Part shown: positions 2,562 through 58,478 of the stretch, piece by piece
How the letters are laid out: each line of letters opens with the position of its first letter
Numbering within the stretch: position 1 is the stretch's first letter
From: Hypomesus transpacificus
Lineage: Eukaryota > Chordata > Actinopteri > Osmeriformes > Osmeridae
NCBI RefSeq assembly: GCF_021917145.1
Contig: NW_025813735.1
Coordinates: forward strand, 281,496 to 345,495
Length of the DNA: 64,000 bases
Direction of reading: 5' to 3'
Notes under the pieces: model-generated
Seen by the model: the letters and a program-made list of their open reading frames with translations, nothing else
Told to the model about the DNA's origin: nothing
Databases searched by the model: none
Made by a program: the position numbers and the translations under genes

Positions 2562-3051
2562 TAGAGAGGACTTCCACGAGGCCTTCACCTCACAGGACGT
2601 GCTGAGGAAACAGAGAGGACTTCCACGAGGCCTTCACCTCACAGGACGTGCTGAGGAAACAGAGAGGACTTCCACGAGGCCTTCACCTCACAGGACGTGC
2701 TGAGGAAACAGAGAGGACTTCCACGAGGCCTTCACCTCACAGGACGTGCTGAGGAAACAGAGAGGACTTCCACGAGGCCTTCACCTCACAGGACGTGCTG
2801 AGGAAACAGAGAGGACTTCCACGAGGCCTTCACCTCACAGGACGTGCTGAGGAAACAGAGAGGACTTCCACGAGGCCTTCACCTCACAGGACGTGCTGAG
2901 GAAACAGAGAGGACTTCCACGAGGCCTTCACCTCACAGGACGTGCTGAGGAAACAGAGAGGACTTCCACGAGGCCTTCACCTCACAGGACGTGCTGAGGA
3001 AACAGAGAGGACTTCCACGAGGCCTTCACCTCACAGGACGTGCTGAGGAAA
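2562..3051 (+). repeat. 49-bp minisatellite, 10 near-identical copies, in the rnf168 3' UTR
   Basis: The unit starts AGAGAGGACTTCCACGAGG and recurs every 49 bp with almost no divergence between 2562 and 3051. It lies between the rnf168 stop (2390) and the likely poly(A) signal at 3168. High copy identity implies recent expansion or homogenisation. If the poly(A) call is right, the array is transcribed in the 3' UTR. Confidence 0.9.
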
Positions 3052-5429: not shown

Positions 5430-8400
5430 ATGTGTGTGGTGAGCTGCTCCAGGTGTGTGGGTGTGGCCCTGGTTCCCCTGGCCTTGTTGTGCATCCTGGC
5501 CAACAGCCTGCTGTTCTTCCCCTGGCTGGAGGGACGCTACCTGCTGGAGGGTCATGTGACCAGAGAGGCCACCTATGGAACCGGCTTGTGGGCGTCGGGA
5601 TTCCTGGTAAGATATTTAGCGAGGGGGTCGGGGTGTGTGGGGTTGAGTTTTAGTGTTTGTATGTGTGTGTGTGTGCATGTGTGTGTGTACATGCTTGCTT
5701 GAGTGTGCATGTGTGTGTATGTACATGTGTGTGTGCATGCTTGCTTGTGTGTGTGCATGTGTGTGTGCGTGCGTACACCCATCTGTGTGGTTCTGTGTAA
5801 CAGTGTGGGTTCTGTGGAACTGTGGTTCTGTGTAACAGTGTGTGGTTCTGTGTAACAGTGTGGGGTTCTGTGGAACTGTGTGGGGTTCTGTGTAACAGTG
5901 TGGGGTTCTGTGTAACAGTGTGTGGTTCTGACTGCAGGATCAGTGCCTTCACCGGTTTCTGATTACTTTCCTCTTGTTCTGTGTTCCTGATGTCGATCAC
6001 TCACCCGCACCTGTGAAGGGACCTTACAGAGCTTTCAAACTGTTGTAATAGTAAATGTATTATACAAAATAACAGTGGGAGGAATTGTGTGAATTATCAA
6101 GCCTTTCACATGTATCTGAATTGTTTTTCTATCATTGTGTTTTCTGTGTTTTGCTTCGCAGGTTCTGGTCGGAGCGAGAGGATTTATAATTGGCAGCTCA
6201 AAGACGGGCTGCTGTGGATTCAGGACTGAGGTGAGGGTGAATATTAGGATCAGGGTGAAGGTGGATATTAGGATCAGGGTGAATATTAGGATCAGGGTGA
6301 ATATTAGGATTAGGGTGAAGGTACTGGTTGGATTAGGGTTAGTGGCTTTGATCTTGAGTGCAACGGAATCAACTTCCGAAGATCTGGTTCTGTATCTGTG
6401 CTGAGGTAAAGTGTTCTAACTCTATGGTTTTGGCCGTGTCTGTGCTGAGGTAAAGTGTTCTAACTCTATGGTTTTGGCCGTGTCTGTGCTGAGGTAAAGT
6501 GTTCTAACTCTATGGTTTTGGCCGTCTCTGTGCTGAGGTAAAGTGTTCTAACTCTATGGTTTTGGCCGTCTCTGTGCTGCCAGATGCTGTTCCAGGTGGG
6601 CTCCTCCTGCGTGGCCCTGACTGCTGCTGCCCTCTGCTGTCTGGTGAGCGCCAGCGCGCTGGTCCACGGCCCGCTGTGCCTCCATAACTCCACGCAGGGC
6701 CAGGCCTGGGCGTCCCCGTTCAGACGCACGTCCAGCCAGTGAGTACGGCTCTCCTGGGAGAGCACAACACTACCTGGTCTTTACACATACATGGAGACAT
6801 ACAGACTTTGGCGCAGTACTGTACACAGGACAGTCTACCTGTATGACCCTGCTCTGTGTTCTCAGGGACCCAGTCTACCTGTATGACCCTGCTCTGTGTT
6901 CTCAGGGACCCAGTCTACCTGTATGACCCTGCTCTGTGTTCTCAGGGACCCAGTCTACCTGTATGACCCTGCTCTGTGTTCCCACGGACCCAGTCTACCT
7001 GTATGACCCTGCTCTGTGTTCTCAGGGACCCAGTCTACCTGTATGACCCTGCTCTGTGTTCCCACGGACCCAGTCTACCTGTATGACCCTGCTCTGTGTT
7101 CTCAGGGACCCAGTCTACCTGTATGACCCTGCTCTGTGTTCTCAGGGACCCAGTCTACCTGTATGACCCTGCTCTGTGTTCTCAGGGACCCAGTCTACCT
7201 GTATGACCCTGCTCTGTGTTCTCAGGGACCCAGTCTACCTGTATGACCCTGCTCTGTGTTCTCAGGGACCCAGTCTACCTGTATGACCCTGCTCTGTGTT
7301 CTCAGGGACCCAGTCTACCTGTATGACCCTGCTCTGTGTTCCCACGGACCCAGTCTACCTGTATGACCCTGCTCTGTGTTCTCAGGGACCCAGTCTACCT
7401 GTATGACCCTGCTCTGTGTTCTCAGGGACCCAGTCTACCTGTTTGACCCTGCTCTGTGTTCTCAGGGACCCAGTCTACCTGTATGACCCTGCTCTGTGTT
7501 CTCAGGGACCCAGTCTACCTGTATGACCCTGCTCTGTGTTCTCAGGGACCCAGTCTACCTGTATGACCCTGCTCTGTGTTCTCAGGGACCCAGTCTACCT
7601 GTATGACCCTGCTCTGTGTTCCCACGGACCCAGTCTACCTGTATGACCCTGCTCTGTGTTCTCAGGGACCCAGTCTACCTGTATGACCCTGCTCTGTGTT
7701 CCCACGGACCCAGTCTACCTGTATGACCCTGCTCTGTGTTCTCAGGGACCCAGTCTACCTGTATGACCCTGCTCTGTGTTCCCACGGACCCAGTCTACCT
7801 GTATGACCCTGCTCTGTGTTCTCAGGGACCCAGTCTACCTGTATGACCCTGCTCTGTGTTCTCAGGGACCCAGTCTACCTGTATGACCCTGCTCTGTGTT
7901 CTCAGGGACCCAGTCTACCTGTATGACCCTGCTCTGTGTTCTCAGGGACCCAGTCTACCTGTATGACCCTGCTCTGTGTTCTCAGGGACCCAGTCTACCT
8001 GTATGACCCTGCTCTGTGTTCTCAGGGACCCAGTCTACCTGTTTGACCCTGCTCTGTGTTCTCAGGGACCCAGTCTACCTGTATGACCCTGCTCTGTGTT
8101 CTCAGGGACCCAGTCTACCTGTATGACCCTGCTCTGTGTTCTCAGGGACCCAGTCTACCTGTATGACCCTGCTCTGTGTTCTCAGGGACCCAGTCTACCT
8201 GTATGACCCTGCTCTGTGTTCTCAGGGACCCAGTCTACCTGTATGACCCTGCTCTGTGTTCTCAGGGACCCAGTCTACCTGTATGACCCTGCTCTGTGTT
8301 CTCAGGGACCCAGTCTACCTGTATGACCCTGCTCTGTGTTCCCACGGACCCAGTCTACCTGTATGACCCTGCTCTGTGTTCTCAGGGACCCAGTCTACCT

Positions 8401-8933
8401 GTATGACCCTGCTCTGTGTTCCCACGGACCCAGTCTACCTGTATGACCCTGCTCTGTGTTCTCAGGGACCCAGTCTACCTGTATGACCCTGCTCTGTGTT
8501 CTCAGGGACCCAGTCTACCTGTATGACCCTGCTCTGTGTTCTCAGGGACCCAGTCTACCTGTATGCCCCTGCTCTTTGGGACTCTGCCTGTGAGGAGCCA
8601 AGGAGTGCTGTGTTGTGGCACGTGGTGCTGTTCTCTGTCCTGGCAGCCAGCAGTGCCCTGCAGGCTCTCCTCTGTGCTGCCCACACACTCAACTCCATAT
8701 GTGGCGTCGTCTTCGGTCGAGGGTTCTGCCGAAACAAGGTGCGCTTATTTACATCACTCAGAATGTGGTGCAAGTGTGTGTGTGTTTGTTATGTGATGTC
8801 GTAGTTAATGAGGTGCAGCTGAAAGAGTGTGGGGGGGTTGTCTGCGTGTGTCTTCACCAGCTGCATGTCGTCGTGTCAGAAGTCTCATAGTGTGTGTGTG
8901 TGTGTGTTTCAGGTCAGTCCAGTCTCTGTTTAA
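5430..8933 (+). CDS. tm4sf19: L6-family tetraspan membrane protein, TM4SF19-like (5 exons)
   Basis: Exons 5430-5606, 6162-6230, 6584-6738, 8546-8738 and 8913-8933 join in frame (phases 0, 0, 2, 0) to about 204 residues, ending VSPVSV. Start ATG 5430 gives MCVVSCSRCVG, the typical L6-family N-terminus with paired cysteines. Four hydrophobic segments are visible: LVPLALLCILANSLLFFPW, GLWASGFLVLVGARGFIIG, VALTAAALCCLVSASALV, and VVLFSVLAASSALQALLCAAHTLNSICGV. The extracellular loop carries NST and the LYAPALWDSACEEP block seen in TM4SF19. The family are plasma-membrane proteins linked to integrins; TM4SF19 lies beside RNF168 in human 3q29, as here. The third intron (6739-8545) is almost entirely a 40-bp minisatellite built from this gene's own splice acceptor. 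The exact paralogue (TM4SF19 rather than TM4SF1/4/18) is inferred from the visible blocks and synteny. Confidence 0.82.
5650..5935 (+). repeat. GT-rich microsatellite plus 'GGTTCTGTGTAACAGTGTG' short tandem repeat
   Basis: Intron 1 of the tm4sf19-like gene holds a TGTGTGCATG-type microsatellite (about 5655-5775), followed by 6-7 imperfect copies of a roughly 20-bp GTGTGGTTCTGTGTAACA unit to about 5935. Confidence 0.8.
6395..6582 (+). repeat. 44-bp tandem repeat, 4 copies, ending at a splice acceptor
   Basis: The unit TCTGTGCTGAGGTAAAGTG... recurs every 44 bp from 6395. The last copy runs into the acceptor of the exon at 6584: TCTGTGCTG is followed by CCAG instead of AGG. Each unit contains CTGAG|GTAAAG, a good match to a 5' splice site, so decoy donors are present just before the real acceptor. 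Confidence 0.85.
6856..8545 (+). repeat. 40-bp minisatellite (42 units) made of a splice acceptor plus exon start
   Basis: Between 6856 and 8545 the sequence is a 40-bp tandem array. Units start at 6866, 6906 and so on, and the real exon starts at 8546, exactly 42 periods later. Each unit consists of about 10 nt of intron end (GTGTTCTCAG) plus the first 30 nt of the downstream exon (GGACCCAGTCTACCTGTATG and onward) with one mismatch (A for C). Eight units carry TTCCCACGG instead of TTCTCAGGG, which destroys the acceptor AG (positions near 6981, 7061, 7341, 7621, 7701, 7781, 8341, 8421). Two units have GTTTGACC for GTATGACC (7441, 8041). Confidence 0.97.
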
Positions 8934-8961: not shown

Positions 8962-9366
8962 GATTATGGTGATGATGAAGAGGATAGTGATGATGATGAT
9001 GACGATGGTGATGAAGAGTATAGTGATGATGATGATGACGATGGTGATGAAGAGGATAGTGATGATGATGATGACGATGGTGATGAAGAGTATAGTGATG
9101 ATGATGATGACGATGGTGATGAAGAGTATAGTGATGATGGTGATGACGATGGTGATGAAGAGTATAGTGATGATGGTGATGACGATGGTGATGAAGAGTA
9201 TAGTGATGATGGTGATGACGATGGTGATGAAGAGTATAGTGATGATGGTGATGACGATGGTGATGAAGAGTATAGTGATGATGATGATGACGATGGTGAT
9301 GAAGAGTATAGTGATGATGATGATGACGATGGTGATGAAGAGTATAGTGATGATGGTGATGATGCA
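8962..9366 (+). repeat. GAT-rich 36-bp minisatellite, about 11 copies, in the tm4sf19-like 3' UTR
   Basis: After the stop at 8931-8933 comes a 36-bp unit (GAT/GAC/GGT/GAA/GAG/TAT/AGT triplets) repeated about 11 times. Because 36 is divisible by three, each frame stays open. One frame would encode an SDDDDDDGDEEY acidic repeat, another poly-His/Tyr on the minus strand. The splice-joined tm4sf19 frame stops before it, so I treat it as 3' UTR. Confidence 0.88.
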
Positions 9367-18000: not shown

Positions 18001-18426
18001 AGGTCCAGGAGCAACATGCGTGTTCTGGTGGGCGTGTTCTGCGTGTGTTTCGTTCCCTACCACCTGGTGCGTGTGCCCTACGCCTTGTTCAAGCGCAGGT
18101 GCGAGTGGGCGAGGCTTTTCTACTTCCTGAAGGAGGGGACGGTGCTGCTGTCGGTTCTCAACGCTTGCCTGGACCCGTTTATTTACTTCATTTTCAGCAA
18201 GGCCTTCAGAGAGCAGCTGGGAGTCGGGGGAGCCTCGAACGTCACCCAGACCCAGCTGGAGATGAGGGGAGCCTCGAACGTCACCCAGACCCAGCTGGAG
18301 ATGAGGAGAGCCTCGAACGTCACCCAGACCCAGCTGGAGATGAGGAGGAACAGCGAGGGTCTCCTGGGACTCCAGAGGACAGAGAAAACTATCGTCACCA
18401 CGTCTAGACGGACAAGTGTGATTTAG
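15096..18426 (+). CDS. Divergent P2Y12-group class A GPCR (2 coding exons)
   Basis: Exon 15096-15466 (donor GTACGC) joins exon 17661-18426 (acceptor CCTCCCAG) in phase 2, inside the Arg codon of the DRY-position motif. This gives about 378 residues ending RTSVI. Features: NSS/NST sequons near the N-terminus, TM2 YLKNLVVADFLLSL, TM3 FYLNMYASILFMDYIAANRYLKIVRP (NRY, not DRY), TM6 FCVCFVPYHLVRVPYA, and TM7 LNACLDPFIYF. TM2, TM6 and TM7 look like P2RY12/13/14. TM4 and ECL2 lack the usual LPNMILTN block and instead have MALGCDTTHS, which recalls carboxylic-acid receptors. The cytoplasmic tail has a 13-residue segment repeated three times. Orthology is unresolved: it could be a fish-specific member of the cluster or a diverged P2RY. 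The 2.2 kb intron hosts a hAT-derived element. Confidence 0.82.
16762..17586 (-). mobile_element. hAT-type transposon remnant with BED-finger fragment
   Basis: Ends are TAGGGTTGGGTATC at 16762 and GGTACCCAACCCTA ending at 17586. They are flanked by an identical 8-bp duplication ATCACACC (16754-16761 and 17587-17594), diagnostic of hAT-type insertion. On the minus strand at about 17361-17480 a frame encodes EIKLWLYFTAKDSNIAKCNKC, the W-x-YF / C-x2-C start of a BED zinc finger as found in hAT/ZBED transposases. A shifted frame downstream (LLKYAATHGILL) looks like the finger's tail. At 825 bp it is an internally deleted, inactive copy in the receptor intron. Confidence 0.85.
18229..18348 (+). 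repeat. Coding minisatellite: 39-bp unit x3 in the receptor tail
   Basis: GCCTCGAACGTCACCCAGAC recurs at 18232, 18271 and 18310 (period 39 bp). It encodes three copies of (G/R)ASNVTQTQLEMR in the cytoplasmic tail of the receptor. The period keeps the frame, so copy number could vary without breaking the protein. Confidence 0.95.
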
Positions 18427-56300: not shown

Positions 56301-58478
56301 ACACCTGCCTTCACTACCAGGAGAGACCAGCACACACCTGCCTTCACTACCAGGAGAGACCAGCACACACCCGCCTTCACTACCAGGAGAGACCAGCACA
56401 CACCTGCCTTCACTACCAGGAGAGACCAGCACACAGCTGCCTTCACTACCAGGAGAGACCAGCACACACCTGCCTTCACTACCAGGAGAGACCAGCACAC
56501 ACCTGCCTTCACTACCTGGAGAGACCAGCACACACCTGCCTTCACTACCAGGAGAGACCAGCACACAGCTGCCTTCACTACCAGGAGAGACCAGCACACA
56601 CATGCCTTCACTACCAGGAGAGACCAGCACACACCTGCCTTCACTACCAGGAGAGACCAGCCACATCTAGCACCTCCAGCAGCTCCACAGTGAGTGTGTG
56701 TGTGCATATGACTGTTTATGTGTGTGTTCATTTATTTAAGTGTGTAATGTGTGTGTGTGTCAGTGTTTGTTAGCTTGTGTGTGTGTCAGTTGTTTATGTG
56801 TGTCAGTGTGTGTGGAGCCAAGCCAACTGGTCCAAAGGGCCTCCCAGTAATAACCCTCCTGATTGGTAGAAGTCCAGCTGATGCCCCTACTTCCTTAACG
56901 ACCTCCTGCTGCCTCCTGATTGGCTGCCGCGCGACCCCTGACCCCAGCACCCCCTTTCATCCCTCCTGATGACCCAGGATTCTTGGAACGCGGTCCGAAC
57001 CGATTCCACGGTCGGCTTGCTCCCAACAAGCCCCTGTGGGGCGTCCTGACCCGGGTTCACAGCCCTGAGAGGGTGAGGGGGTGGTTGGGGTGGAGAGGGG
57101 GGGTTTCCCCAGAGACAGTTGGGTGTCTCTGGGGATAATTGTATCGTACAGATCTGGGTTAGTACAGGCTAAGGGCACGGCACAGGGGGGTGGGGGGGAT
57201 GGAGGGGTGGGGGGGGTGGAGGGGTGAGGGGGCTGGCAACTCTCCAAACGAGATGTTGGACTTGTTGACCTCTCAGCCAATGACAGTTCTCCTCAGACAA
57301 GCTGGCGTCGAAGACCAAAACACTGGCTGTACTCTGCTGTACTAGTGTAGCCTCCCTCATGATCAACATACAGTACAGCAGAGATTCTTCTACTCTTTCA
57401 CTGTGTCAACGCAGAGTACAGTACAGTAGAGTAGATACTTGGCTAAGCTACACAGAGCAGGATGTAGACAGAGCAGAGCAGGATGTAGACAGAGCAGAGC
57501 AGGATGTAGACAGAGCAGAGCAGGATGTAGATAGAGCAGAGCAGGATGTAGACAGCTGTGTGTTAGCCAGGCACTCACTCTCTTCCTCCGCCTTGCATTT
57601 GACCTCCAGGTCGACGGTGGAGAGGCAGAGCTTGTTGCCCTCCTGCACTGCCAGCTCCCGCGGGTGCTGCTTCATGGAGTGTCCGACGCTCAGACGACGC
57701 CCCACCGTGGTCACCTGCCGGTAGAACTGCTTCCCTGTGATCTTGTGGTCGAAGCCCAGCCAGCTGAACTTGATCTTTACCCTGAGAGAGGGAGGGAGAG
57801 GGGGCGAGGCGGGGGAGGGGAGGGGGGAGACGGGGCGAGGCGGGGGAGGGGAGGGGGGAGAGAGAGGAGAGACGGAAGAGAAACAGAGAGGGAGAAAAGT
57901 AAGAATAACATCAACTAAATCCAGGTGAATCAGAACAAAGCCTCTGGATCTCTCGCTTTGCTACAACTTCCTGTCTGGAAGGCCGGGGCTGCCTTGGGGG
58001 CGTGTGTTTGTGTCCTATGTGTGTGTGTGTGTGAGTCCTACATGTGTGTGTATGTGAGTCCTACATGTGTGTGTGTGTGTGAGTCCTACGTGTAATCCAT
58101 GTCCTCGGGGCCGGGGAAGGGCTCCAGGGGCCAGTTGAAGAAGCAGTTGAGGAAGACGAGGCCGGCACAGGCCGCCCACACCAGCAGGATGCTGATGAAG
58201 GTGGCGCCCAGGTCATAGATCACCTGCAGGGACACCACAACGTTACACACACACACAGACACACACAGACTCACACACACATGTAAGACACACACAGACA
58301 CACACACACACACATGTAAGACACACACAGACACACACACACATGTAAGACACACACATAGACACACGCACACACACAGGCTCACCTTGATCCCAGGGAA
58401 GGTGACGGCCGAAGATGCGTAGGAGCCGATCATGAGAGCGATGAAGGTGGAGCGCAGGTCTCCAAACATGCTTGGCAG
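53366..58478 (-). CDS. slc43a2: LAT4 amino-acid transporter SLC43A2, C-terminal 9 exons
   Basis: Minus-strand exons 58478-58386, 58223-58090, 57781-57579, 55657-55514, 55045-54919, 54826-54694, 54113-54040, 53792-53669 and 53527-53366 join in frame (1194 nt, 397 residues), TAG at 53366-53368. Diagnostic blocks: [168 protein letters not shown]. These are LAT4 (SLC43A2) rather than LAT3 (SLC43A1). LAT4 is a Na-independent facilitated transporter of Leu, Ile, Met and Phe, basolateral in kidney and gut. About 170 N-terminal residues are absent; a LINE (60440-63860) fills the intron region to the right. Confidence 0.95.
53793..54039 (-). repeat. Intron made of acceptor-containing repeats (slc43a2)
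   Basis: The CCTGAGACACACACAGCACG block, whose minus strand is the real acceptor TGTGTGTGTCTCAG|G at 53792, recurs at 53875 and 53941, with a shortened form at 54025 beside the upstream donor. Spacers are CA/GTAC microsatellite. Periods are 84, 66 and 84 bp. Confidence 0.85.
54114..54693 (-). other. slc43a2 intron, no other feature
   Basis: Unique-looking intronic sequence between exons 54826-54694 and 54113-54040. Nothing recognised. Confidence 0.5.
55315..55395 (-). repeat. CAGGAAGCAGGAAA short tandem repeat
   Basis: AGGAAGCAGGAAGCAGGAAA heptamer-based repeat in an slc43a2 intron. Confidence 0.8.
55661..56190 (-). repeat. 530-bp GGGGAGGAGA purine tract abutting an slc43a2 acceptor
   Basis: Plus-strand (GAGGGGGGAGGA)n from 55661 to 56190. 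On the minus strand it is a CTCTCCTCCCCC polypyrimidine tract reaching the AG (CTCTCCAG) of the exon that starts at 55657. Arg/Glu/Gly-rich frames are repeat artefacts. Confidence 0.93.
56245..56665 (-). repeat. 33-bp minisatellite, 12-13 copies, slc43a2 intron
   Basis: CTACCAGGAGAGACCAGCAC... CTGCCTTCA units, 33 bp. The period is divisible by three, so every frame stays open, producing spurious 150-aa frames on both strands. Confidence 0.93.
57180..57235 (-). repeat. GGGGTGGAGGGG G-rich stretch
   Basis: CACAGGGGGGTGGGGGGGATGGAGGGGTGGGGGG: several G-runs within about 50 nt, a possible G-quadruplex, in an slc43a2 intron. Confidence 0.6.
57448..57555 (-). repeat. 21-bp tandem repeat x5, slc43a2 intron
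   Basis: GAGCAGGATGTAGACAGAGCA repeated five times just downstream of the exon 57781-57579 donor. Confidence 0.88.
58225..58385 (-). repeat. ACACAC/ATGTAAG microsatellite, slc43a2 intron
   Basis: CACACACACATGTAAGACAC repeated three to four times. It fills the intron between exons 58478-58386 and 58223-58090. Confidence 0.85.

Follow-up and report, generated by a model that had tools for sequence, protein, structure and literature searches.

How is one acceptor chosen when dozens of near-identical copies of it precede the exon? This question is raised by a 64,000-nucleotide stretch of the genome of Hypomesus transpacificus (the window), which is the terminal 64 kb of the 345,495-bp contig C67 in a genome of 437 Mb and 376 contigs. 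In this window, a tm4sf19-like gene carries a 40-bp minisatellite that spans the border between intron 3 and exon 4. The array is a genuine and long instance of a type of repeat already described, the 'mirages' of amphioxus, and arrays of this type recur in at least eight genes of this single genome, at both types of splice site.

The minisatellite was delineated with Tandem Repeats Finder (Table 1). Upstream of exon base 8546, which served as anchor, 42 complete units lie in register, and their splice signal is AG in 34 and AC in eight (units k=39, 37, 30, 23, 21, 19, 5 and 3). The initial annotation had reported a 40-bp unit repeated 42 times in register with the exon start, with about 34 copies keeping the AG and eight altered, and these counts hold. 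It had also described the unit as the intron end plus 30 nt of exon with one mismatch; each unit indeed consists of the last 10 nt of the intron (GTGTTCTCAG) and the initial 30 nt of the exon, and the mismatch lies at +21. Over positions -10 to +30 this one base (A versus C) is all that separates the AG units from the true site, except in two that carry a further change at +18. Up to +20 the AG decoys are thus locally the same as the true site, apart from scattered variants at -4/-1 (the AC units) and at +18. Since a score of the local sequence cannot separate the decoys from the true site, the skipping of the decoys demands an explanation. The edges of the array differ from its homogeneous core: a degenerate 43rd unit forms its 5' edge, and the true exon diverges at +21 and again from +31. 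The variant units follow each other in irregular order. Each unit also contains the word TATGAC, created by the GAC codon about 20 nt upstream of the next AG, which we take to resemble a branch point and to be a candidate for one.

The tm4sf19-like gene is intact, with five exons that encode a protein of 204 amino acids, of which residues 1-191 match positions 1-188 of the 191 positions of the Pfam L6_membrane profile (PF05805, E=4.5e-52). The AG at 8544..8545 is taken to be the true acceptor from the reading frame and this L6 protein. A fragment of the upstream neighbour is similar to RNF169 (E=1.2e-5), in keeping with an RNF168-type gene, and human RNF168 and TM4SF19 are close neighbours, which may bear on the identity of the gene as TM4SF19. 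A protein search of the genome returned a single close locus, this gene, and remoter matches on contigs C5, C10, C22, C73 and C89. Tandem Repeats Finder detected no array at any of the four paralogous exon-4 loci that were read. At two of these four (L069 and L070, aligned by eye) Asp stands at the codon that reads GAC in the units and GCC (Ala) in the true exon. The units thus resemble copies of an earlier exon, whose state they seem to preserve.

The consequences of decoy use can be read from the frame. With a unit as acceptor, a stop is met at codon 154 after 20 added codons in 41 of the 42 cases, as had been predicted for about 20 codons in the initial annotation; from the nearest unit, the stop comes at codon 163. 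The added peptide is QDPVYLYDPALCSQGPSLPV in 31 units, an S-H version of it in eight and an L-F version in two. All 42 units, whether they carry AG or not, place the premature stop 145 to 1812 nt upstream of the last exon junction. A premature stop further than about 50 nt upstream of the last junction directs an mRNA to nonsense-mediated decay (NMD), so that decoy-spliced mRNAs are expected to be removed by this route. Retention of intron 3 leads to an immediate stop.

The author of the initial annotation had not seen the arrangement described as a regulatory device, and for the arrangement itself that reading has to be amended, as published counterparts exist in amphioxus and in the human genes ABCA7, F7 and CBS (in the last as a single duplication). 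Mirages are minisatellite-like tandem repeats across 5' or 3' intron-exon borders and are known from amphioxus Adh3 and the globins BflGb6 and BflGb9 (PMC3087553). According to that account, many but not all of their units carry AG or GT and the border units escape homogenisation, RT-PCR suggests that regular splicing is kept despite the mirages, and the genome draft was found to be misassembled at one of them (PMC3087553). The tm4sf19 array is alike in that it spans the border in register, has AG in 34 of 42 units and has a degenerate edge unit. It differs in dimensions, with about 43 units of 40 bp against three to six units of 150-160 bp in BflGb6 and units of 10-72 bp in Adh3, and in host, a vertebrate-type genome instead of amphioxus.

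Three human loci share parts of this arrangement. Firstly, 844_845ins68 in CBS is a tandem copy of the intron 7/exon 8 junction, and the distal site beside the rest of exon 8 is strongly favoured (PMC2630376); the passage concerned calls this site a 'donor', though Romano 2002, among its references, deals with 3' splice sites. As with the 10 nt plus 30 nt of tm4sf19, an intron end and an exon start were duplicated, but in CBS as one duplication of 68 bp. A literature search for a 31-bp variable number tandem repeat (VNTR) of CBS returned no paper. Secondly, intron 7 of F7 holds a variable number of 37-bp repeats with a donor, of which the most upstream donor alone is normally used (PMC6627357). 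In contrast to the tm4sf19 array, these repeats lie on the donor side. They are reportedly present in few copies. Thirdly, intron 18 of ABCA7 contains a 25-bp VNTR of about 12 to 427 units whose initial bases are the exon 18 donor, and a decoy donor one unit away is used to some extent, with a frameshift and a premature stop (PMC5954066). Longer alleles show lower expression and more skipping of exon 19, retention of the unit is described as constant across VNTR lengths and decay as unaffected by length, and expansions are harmful (PMC5954066). ABCA7 and tm4sf19 have in common a tandem repeat at a splice junction with decoy sites; in ABCA7 this is on the donor side, the VNTR begins at the donor and exon sequence was apparently not copied. 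Lastly, tandem genomic duplication that copies splice signals is a route of intron gain (PMC4974935, PMC3443670) and has been proposed for mirages too (PMC3087553). There the copy becomes a new intron, whereas in tm4sf19 the copies are decoys beside an old one.

In seven further genes of this genome a junction array was confirmed by homology, at an acceptor in three and at a donor in four (Table 1). Some of the genes with junction arrays are essential in other animals. The RhoGEF/BAR gene was recognised by a RhoGEF match on the joined exons (E=4.1e-12), with BAR under its cut-off. Among the eight genes, alpha-L-fucosidase alone has a unit length divisible by three, and read-through there is open in the part seen. 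All acceptor decoys that were read meet a stop: 42 in tm4sf19, five in the RhoGEF/BAR gene, two in SMPD2 and three in ZRANB1. On the donor side, a stop interrupts read-through ahead of decoy 1 in HMGCR, of decoy 2 in MAN1A and of decoy 3 in MED12, and in these three genes decoys nearer than that stop cause a frame shift only. Counted to the first mismatch, the exonic share of the unit spans 1-24 nt, fucosidase being left out of this count (1 nt in ZRANB1, 20 nt in tm4sf19, 24 nt in MED12 and MAN1A).

Table 1. Features of the tm4sf19-like gene (window positions) and junction arrays in seven other genes of the genome.
Feature	Position	Strand	Repeat	Remark
tm4sf19-like exon 1, first coding exon	5430..5606	+		open reading frame, GT donor
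tm4sf19-like exon 2	6162..6230	+		AG/GT borders, frame kept
tm4sf19-like exon 3	6584..6738	+		donor G at 6739 serves the array-bearing intron
tm4sf19-like intron 3	6739..8545	+		nearly all array
Minisatellite spanning exon 4 acceptor	6831..8575	+	40 bp, 43.6 copies	97% matches
In-register upstream units	6856..8535	+	42 units	34 decoy acceptors AG, 8 AC
Putative true acceptor AG, exon-proximal copy	8544..8545	+		sole copy joined to the exon body giving the L6 protein
tm4sf19-like exon 4	8546..8738	+		initial 30 nt are the exonic share of the repeat unit
tm4sf19-like last exon, coding part incl. stop codon	8913..8933	+		
RhoGEF/BAR gene, acceptor array			62 bp x 6	39 nt intron end + 23 nt exon start
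SMPD2, acceptor array			34 bp, at least 11 decoys	E=1.9e-6
ZRANB1, acceptor array			29 bp, at least 3 decoys	E=5.3e-28
MED12 exon, donor array			47 bp x 5	E=6.6e-48; MED12 and MED12L not separated
MAN1A, donor array			26 bp x 20	E=7.4e-30
HMGCR, donor array			26 bp x 8	E=7.1e-16
alpha-L-fucosidase, donor array		opposite	42 bp x 3	decoys: one GT, one TT; E=3.1e-13

Several of the loci read have features of their own. The MAN1A exon (L054/L064, C2:170400-171700, minus strand) is flanked by arrays on both sides, a CTGCTAGTGACAGGTCCTG repeat ahead of the acceptor and the donor array behind. The HMGCR unit (L065, C7:9444800-9445700) reads CTACCTGTCCAG|GTGAGT, acceptor-like on one side and donor-like on the other, and stepwise (recursive) splicing could therefore erase the decoys. 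Three arrays with 45- or 48-bp units and an open frame (L066, L067 and L068) adjoin exons without a convincing match; they may be coding repeats or frame-neutral decoys. Two of them (L066, C3:1550600-1551750; L067, C6:8778800-8779650) are 48-bp arrays of CAG|GTGAGT, where each alternative donor would add 16 residues and protein length could change as a result. At L080 (C11:19179490-19179990) a striatin exon (Pfam E=2.1e-13) comes just after a 53-54 bp array of TTTTCAGG words in the intron, and the array is out of register with the acceptor of that exon.

The frequency of such arrays was estimated from 200 kb of contig C1, sampled as 20 stretches, and from the window, for units of 18-100 bp. 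Two of the 12 arrays in the C1 sample span confirmed exon borders (RhoGEF/BAR and MED12) and one of 23 in the window, the latter being a lower bound as the other 22 were inspected by eye. Pooled, three of 35 arrays (8.6%, 95% interval 1.8-23%) span a confirmed border. This is not a demonstrated excess over random placement, with P(>=3) of 0.17 if one border per kb is assumed, a density based on gene numbers and at which about 4% is expected by chance; the value is 0.035 at one border per 2 kb and 0.37 at 1.5 per kb. Tolerance of junction arrays, rather than their enrichment, is what stands out. Minisatellites as such (18-100 bp, at least three copies, at least 85% alike) are denser in the window than in the C1 sample, with 3.6 against 0.6 per 10 kb.

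Pattern searches of the genome yielded further arrays. Triples of Y6NCAGG gave 4701 hits versus 783 in the reversed control, triples of AGGTGAGT 589 versus 314 and triples of TTTNCAGG 278 versus 44, while the single motifs in 200 kb gave 57 versus 36 hits for Y6NCAGG and eight versus eight for AGGTGAGT. Because one array yields many hits, these counts carry no claim of enrichment. Among the Y6NCAGG arrays listed, none of 14 distinct ones was seen at a recognised exon when inspected by eye without a protein search. For the donor word AGGTGAGT, 20 of the 21 arrays listed were fetched and two confirmed (MAN1A and HMGCR); 15 were not recognised, and two in-frame 48-bp arrays and one opposite-strand acceptor array had no convincing exon match. 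For the acceptor word TTTNCAGG, 20 of the 31 arrays listed were fetched, in part picked for an exonic look, and three were confirmed (SMPD2, ZRANB1 and alpha-L-fucosidase); this set also contained the striatin exon beside its out-of-register array and a probable exon without a match (L076).

Hairpin-driven duplication was considered as a common cause of these repeats and rejected. Folded as DNA, two of five repeats were more stable than their shuffles and three were not (z of -2.97 for RhoGEF, -2.39 for HMGCR and +1.22 for tm4sf19); MAN1A was represented in this set by its acceptor-side repeat, not by the donor array.

We consider it probable that the tm4sf19 array is a mirage-type minisatellite, tolerated because splicing goes mainly to the exon-proximal copy, and that decay-prone mRNA is a leak at most. 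The array would have been seeded by a tandem duplication of the junction, with 10 nt from the end of intron 3 and 30 nt from the start of exon 4, and may have grown to about 43 copies via unequal exchange or slippage; in our judgement, the proposal of growth from an exon border in the initial annotation is right. Such growth would be tolerated because one end of the array always retains a complete junction on a normal exon. As in the published cases, the splicing machinery would mostly select the exon-proximal copy, probably by exon definition together with the donor at 8739. This copy is the downstream one for acceptors and the upstream one for donors, and both would be in line with exon definition, where the shortest exon with good borders on both sides is preferred. 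Any use of a decoy would produce mRNAs with an early stop for NMD, presumably a small unproductive leak. At the level of sequence, the same duplication process is shown to have acted on acceptors and donors of other genes here, and the seven additional genes with such arrays suggest a mutational process that acts generally and not a device specific to tm4sf19.

Several lines of evidence are consistent with this explanation: the register, copy number and identity of the units, the intact L6 frame, the stops, the units that appear to preserve an older state and the seven further arrays. The published mirage, CBS and F7 cases, which by their own accounts keep exon-proximal or regular splicing, would agree with it by analogy. 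Other points weigh against it. The choice of acceptor is deduced from the reading frame, and 34 equal sites closer to the donor could in principle outcompete the true acceptor. By analogy with ABCA7, where decoy use, lower expression and exon skipping are reported, arrays of this kind need not be neutral. Moreover, the arrays found with patterns lie mostly off recognised exons (0/14, 2/20 and 3/20 confirmed).

Alternatively, the array could be a regulatory device in which the decoys commit a fixed share of the transcripts to decay and the output of tm4sf19 is tuned by copy number. The 34 intact decoys and the stops, all of them placed for NMD, would suit such a role, as would the longer ABCA7 alleles with less expression and more exon 19 skipping, and the premature stop that follows retention of one unit there. 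We nevertheless regard this as unlikely, since junction arrays occur in seven unrelated genes and on both sides, and none of the four paralogous exon-4 loci that were read has one. ABCA7 speaks on this side as well, as unit retention is reported to be independent of VNTR length and decay to show no effect of length, and amphioxus mirages are described as leaving regular splicing undisturbed.

The array might also be a damaging expansion, in which splicing is drawn to the decoys nearer to the donor or leaves out the exon, so that the allele makes little TM4SF19. The decoys do lie closer to the donor, and their local sequence equals that of the true site. Classical experiments with duplicated sites are said to have sometimes favoured the first acceptor, and ABCA7 expansions provide a precedent for harm. 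This seems quite unlikely in view of the intact frame across all five exons, which a recent allele could still show as well, of the exon-proximal choice reported for CBS and amphioxus, and of similar arrays that persist in HMGCR, MED12 and MAN1A. Finally, that the repeat is in truth shorter and owes its length to faulty assembly, for which the wrongly assembled amphioxus mirage is a precedent, is highly improbable given the irregular order of the variant units, the contigs of over 10 Mb that suggest long reads, and the recurrence of junction arrays at other loci.

Other arrays were observed in and around the tm4sf19-like gene. A second one on the plus strand (6395..6579, 44 bp x 4.2) ends 4 bp short of exon 3; it adjoins that junction without spanning it, and each unit has a branch-point-like word TTCTAAC and an AG. 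From the exon 2 donor onward, an 18-24 bp array (6230-6319) repeats donor-like AGGGTGAAT words. Directly after the stop codon of the gene, in the presumed 3' untranslated region, lies a 36-bp array of 10.8 copies (8973-9362) in which GAT/GAA-type codons are common. In the neighbouring RNF168/169-like gene, a 9-bp array of the CCCTCCTGC type (476-872, about 44 copies) ends at a CTCCTCCAG acceptor ahead of a coding-looking exon and is an expanded polypyrimidine tract. Downstream of the apparent stop of that gene, a 49-bp unit is repeated 10 times with 100% identity (2563-3051), with one frame protein-like (EDFHEAFTSQDVLRK). Three more features of the window were noted by eye: a 39-bp (13-codon) repeat at 18227-18345 that seemingly lengthens the tail of a receptor-like protein, a minus-strand intron at 58257-58374 that is apparently nearly all GT/CA-type array from GTGAGC to CTGCAG, and retroelement-like coding sequence at the extreme end of the contig (63000-63840).

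A broader proposal is that the genome holds a large class of mirage-type arrays, perhaps hundreds, at both types of site and in essential genes too, which would form a ladder of 1 to 34 near-identical sites showing genome-wide that the exon-proximal copy wins, with copy number grading unproductive splicing. We put this forward as a tentative and rather doubtful extension.

Experiments on splice-site choice often set two sites in competition on a plasmid construct. The arrays described here are natural counterparts in genes of known function, with decoys that are locally alike and number up to 34 for acceptors and up to 19 for donors. Since the decoys do not differ in local sequence, position and exon context must decide between them, and such arrays offer a test of exon definition against first-come scanning on both sides of the intron. 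The ABCA7 case, as published, indicates that such arrays can matter for disease. Mirages have been described as a feature of amphioxus, and their presence in eight genes of this genome suggests that they are more widely spread.

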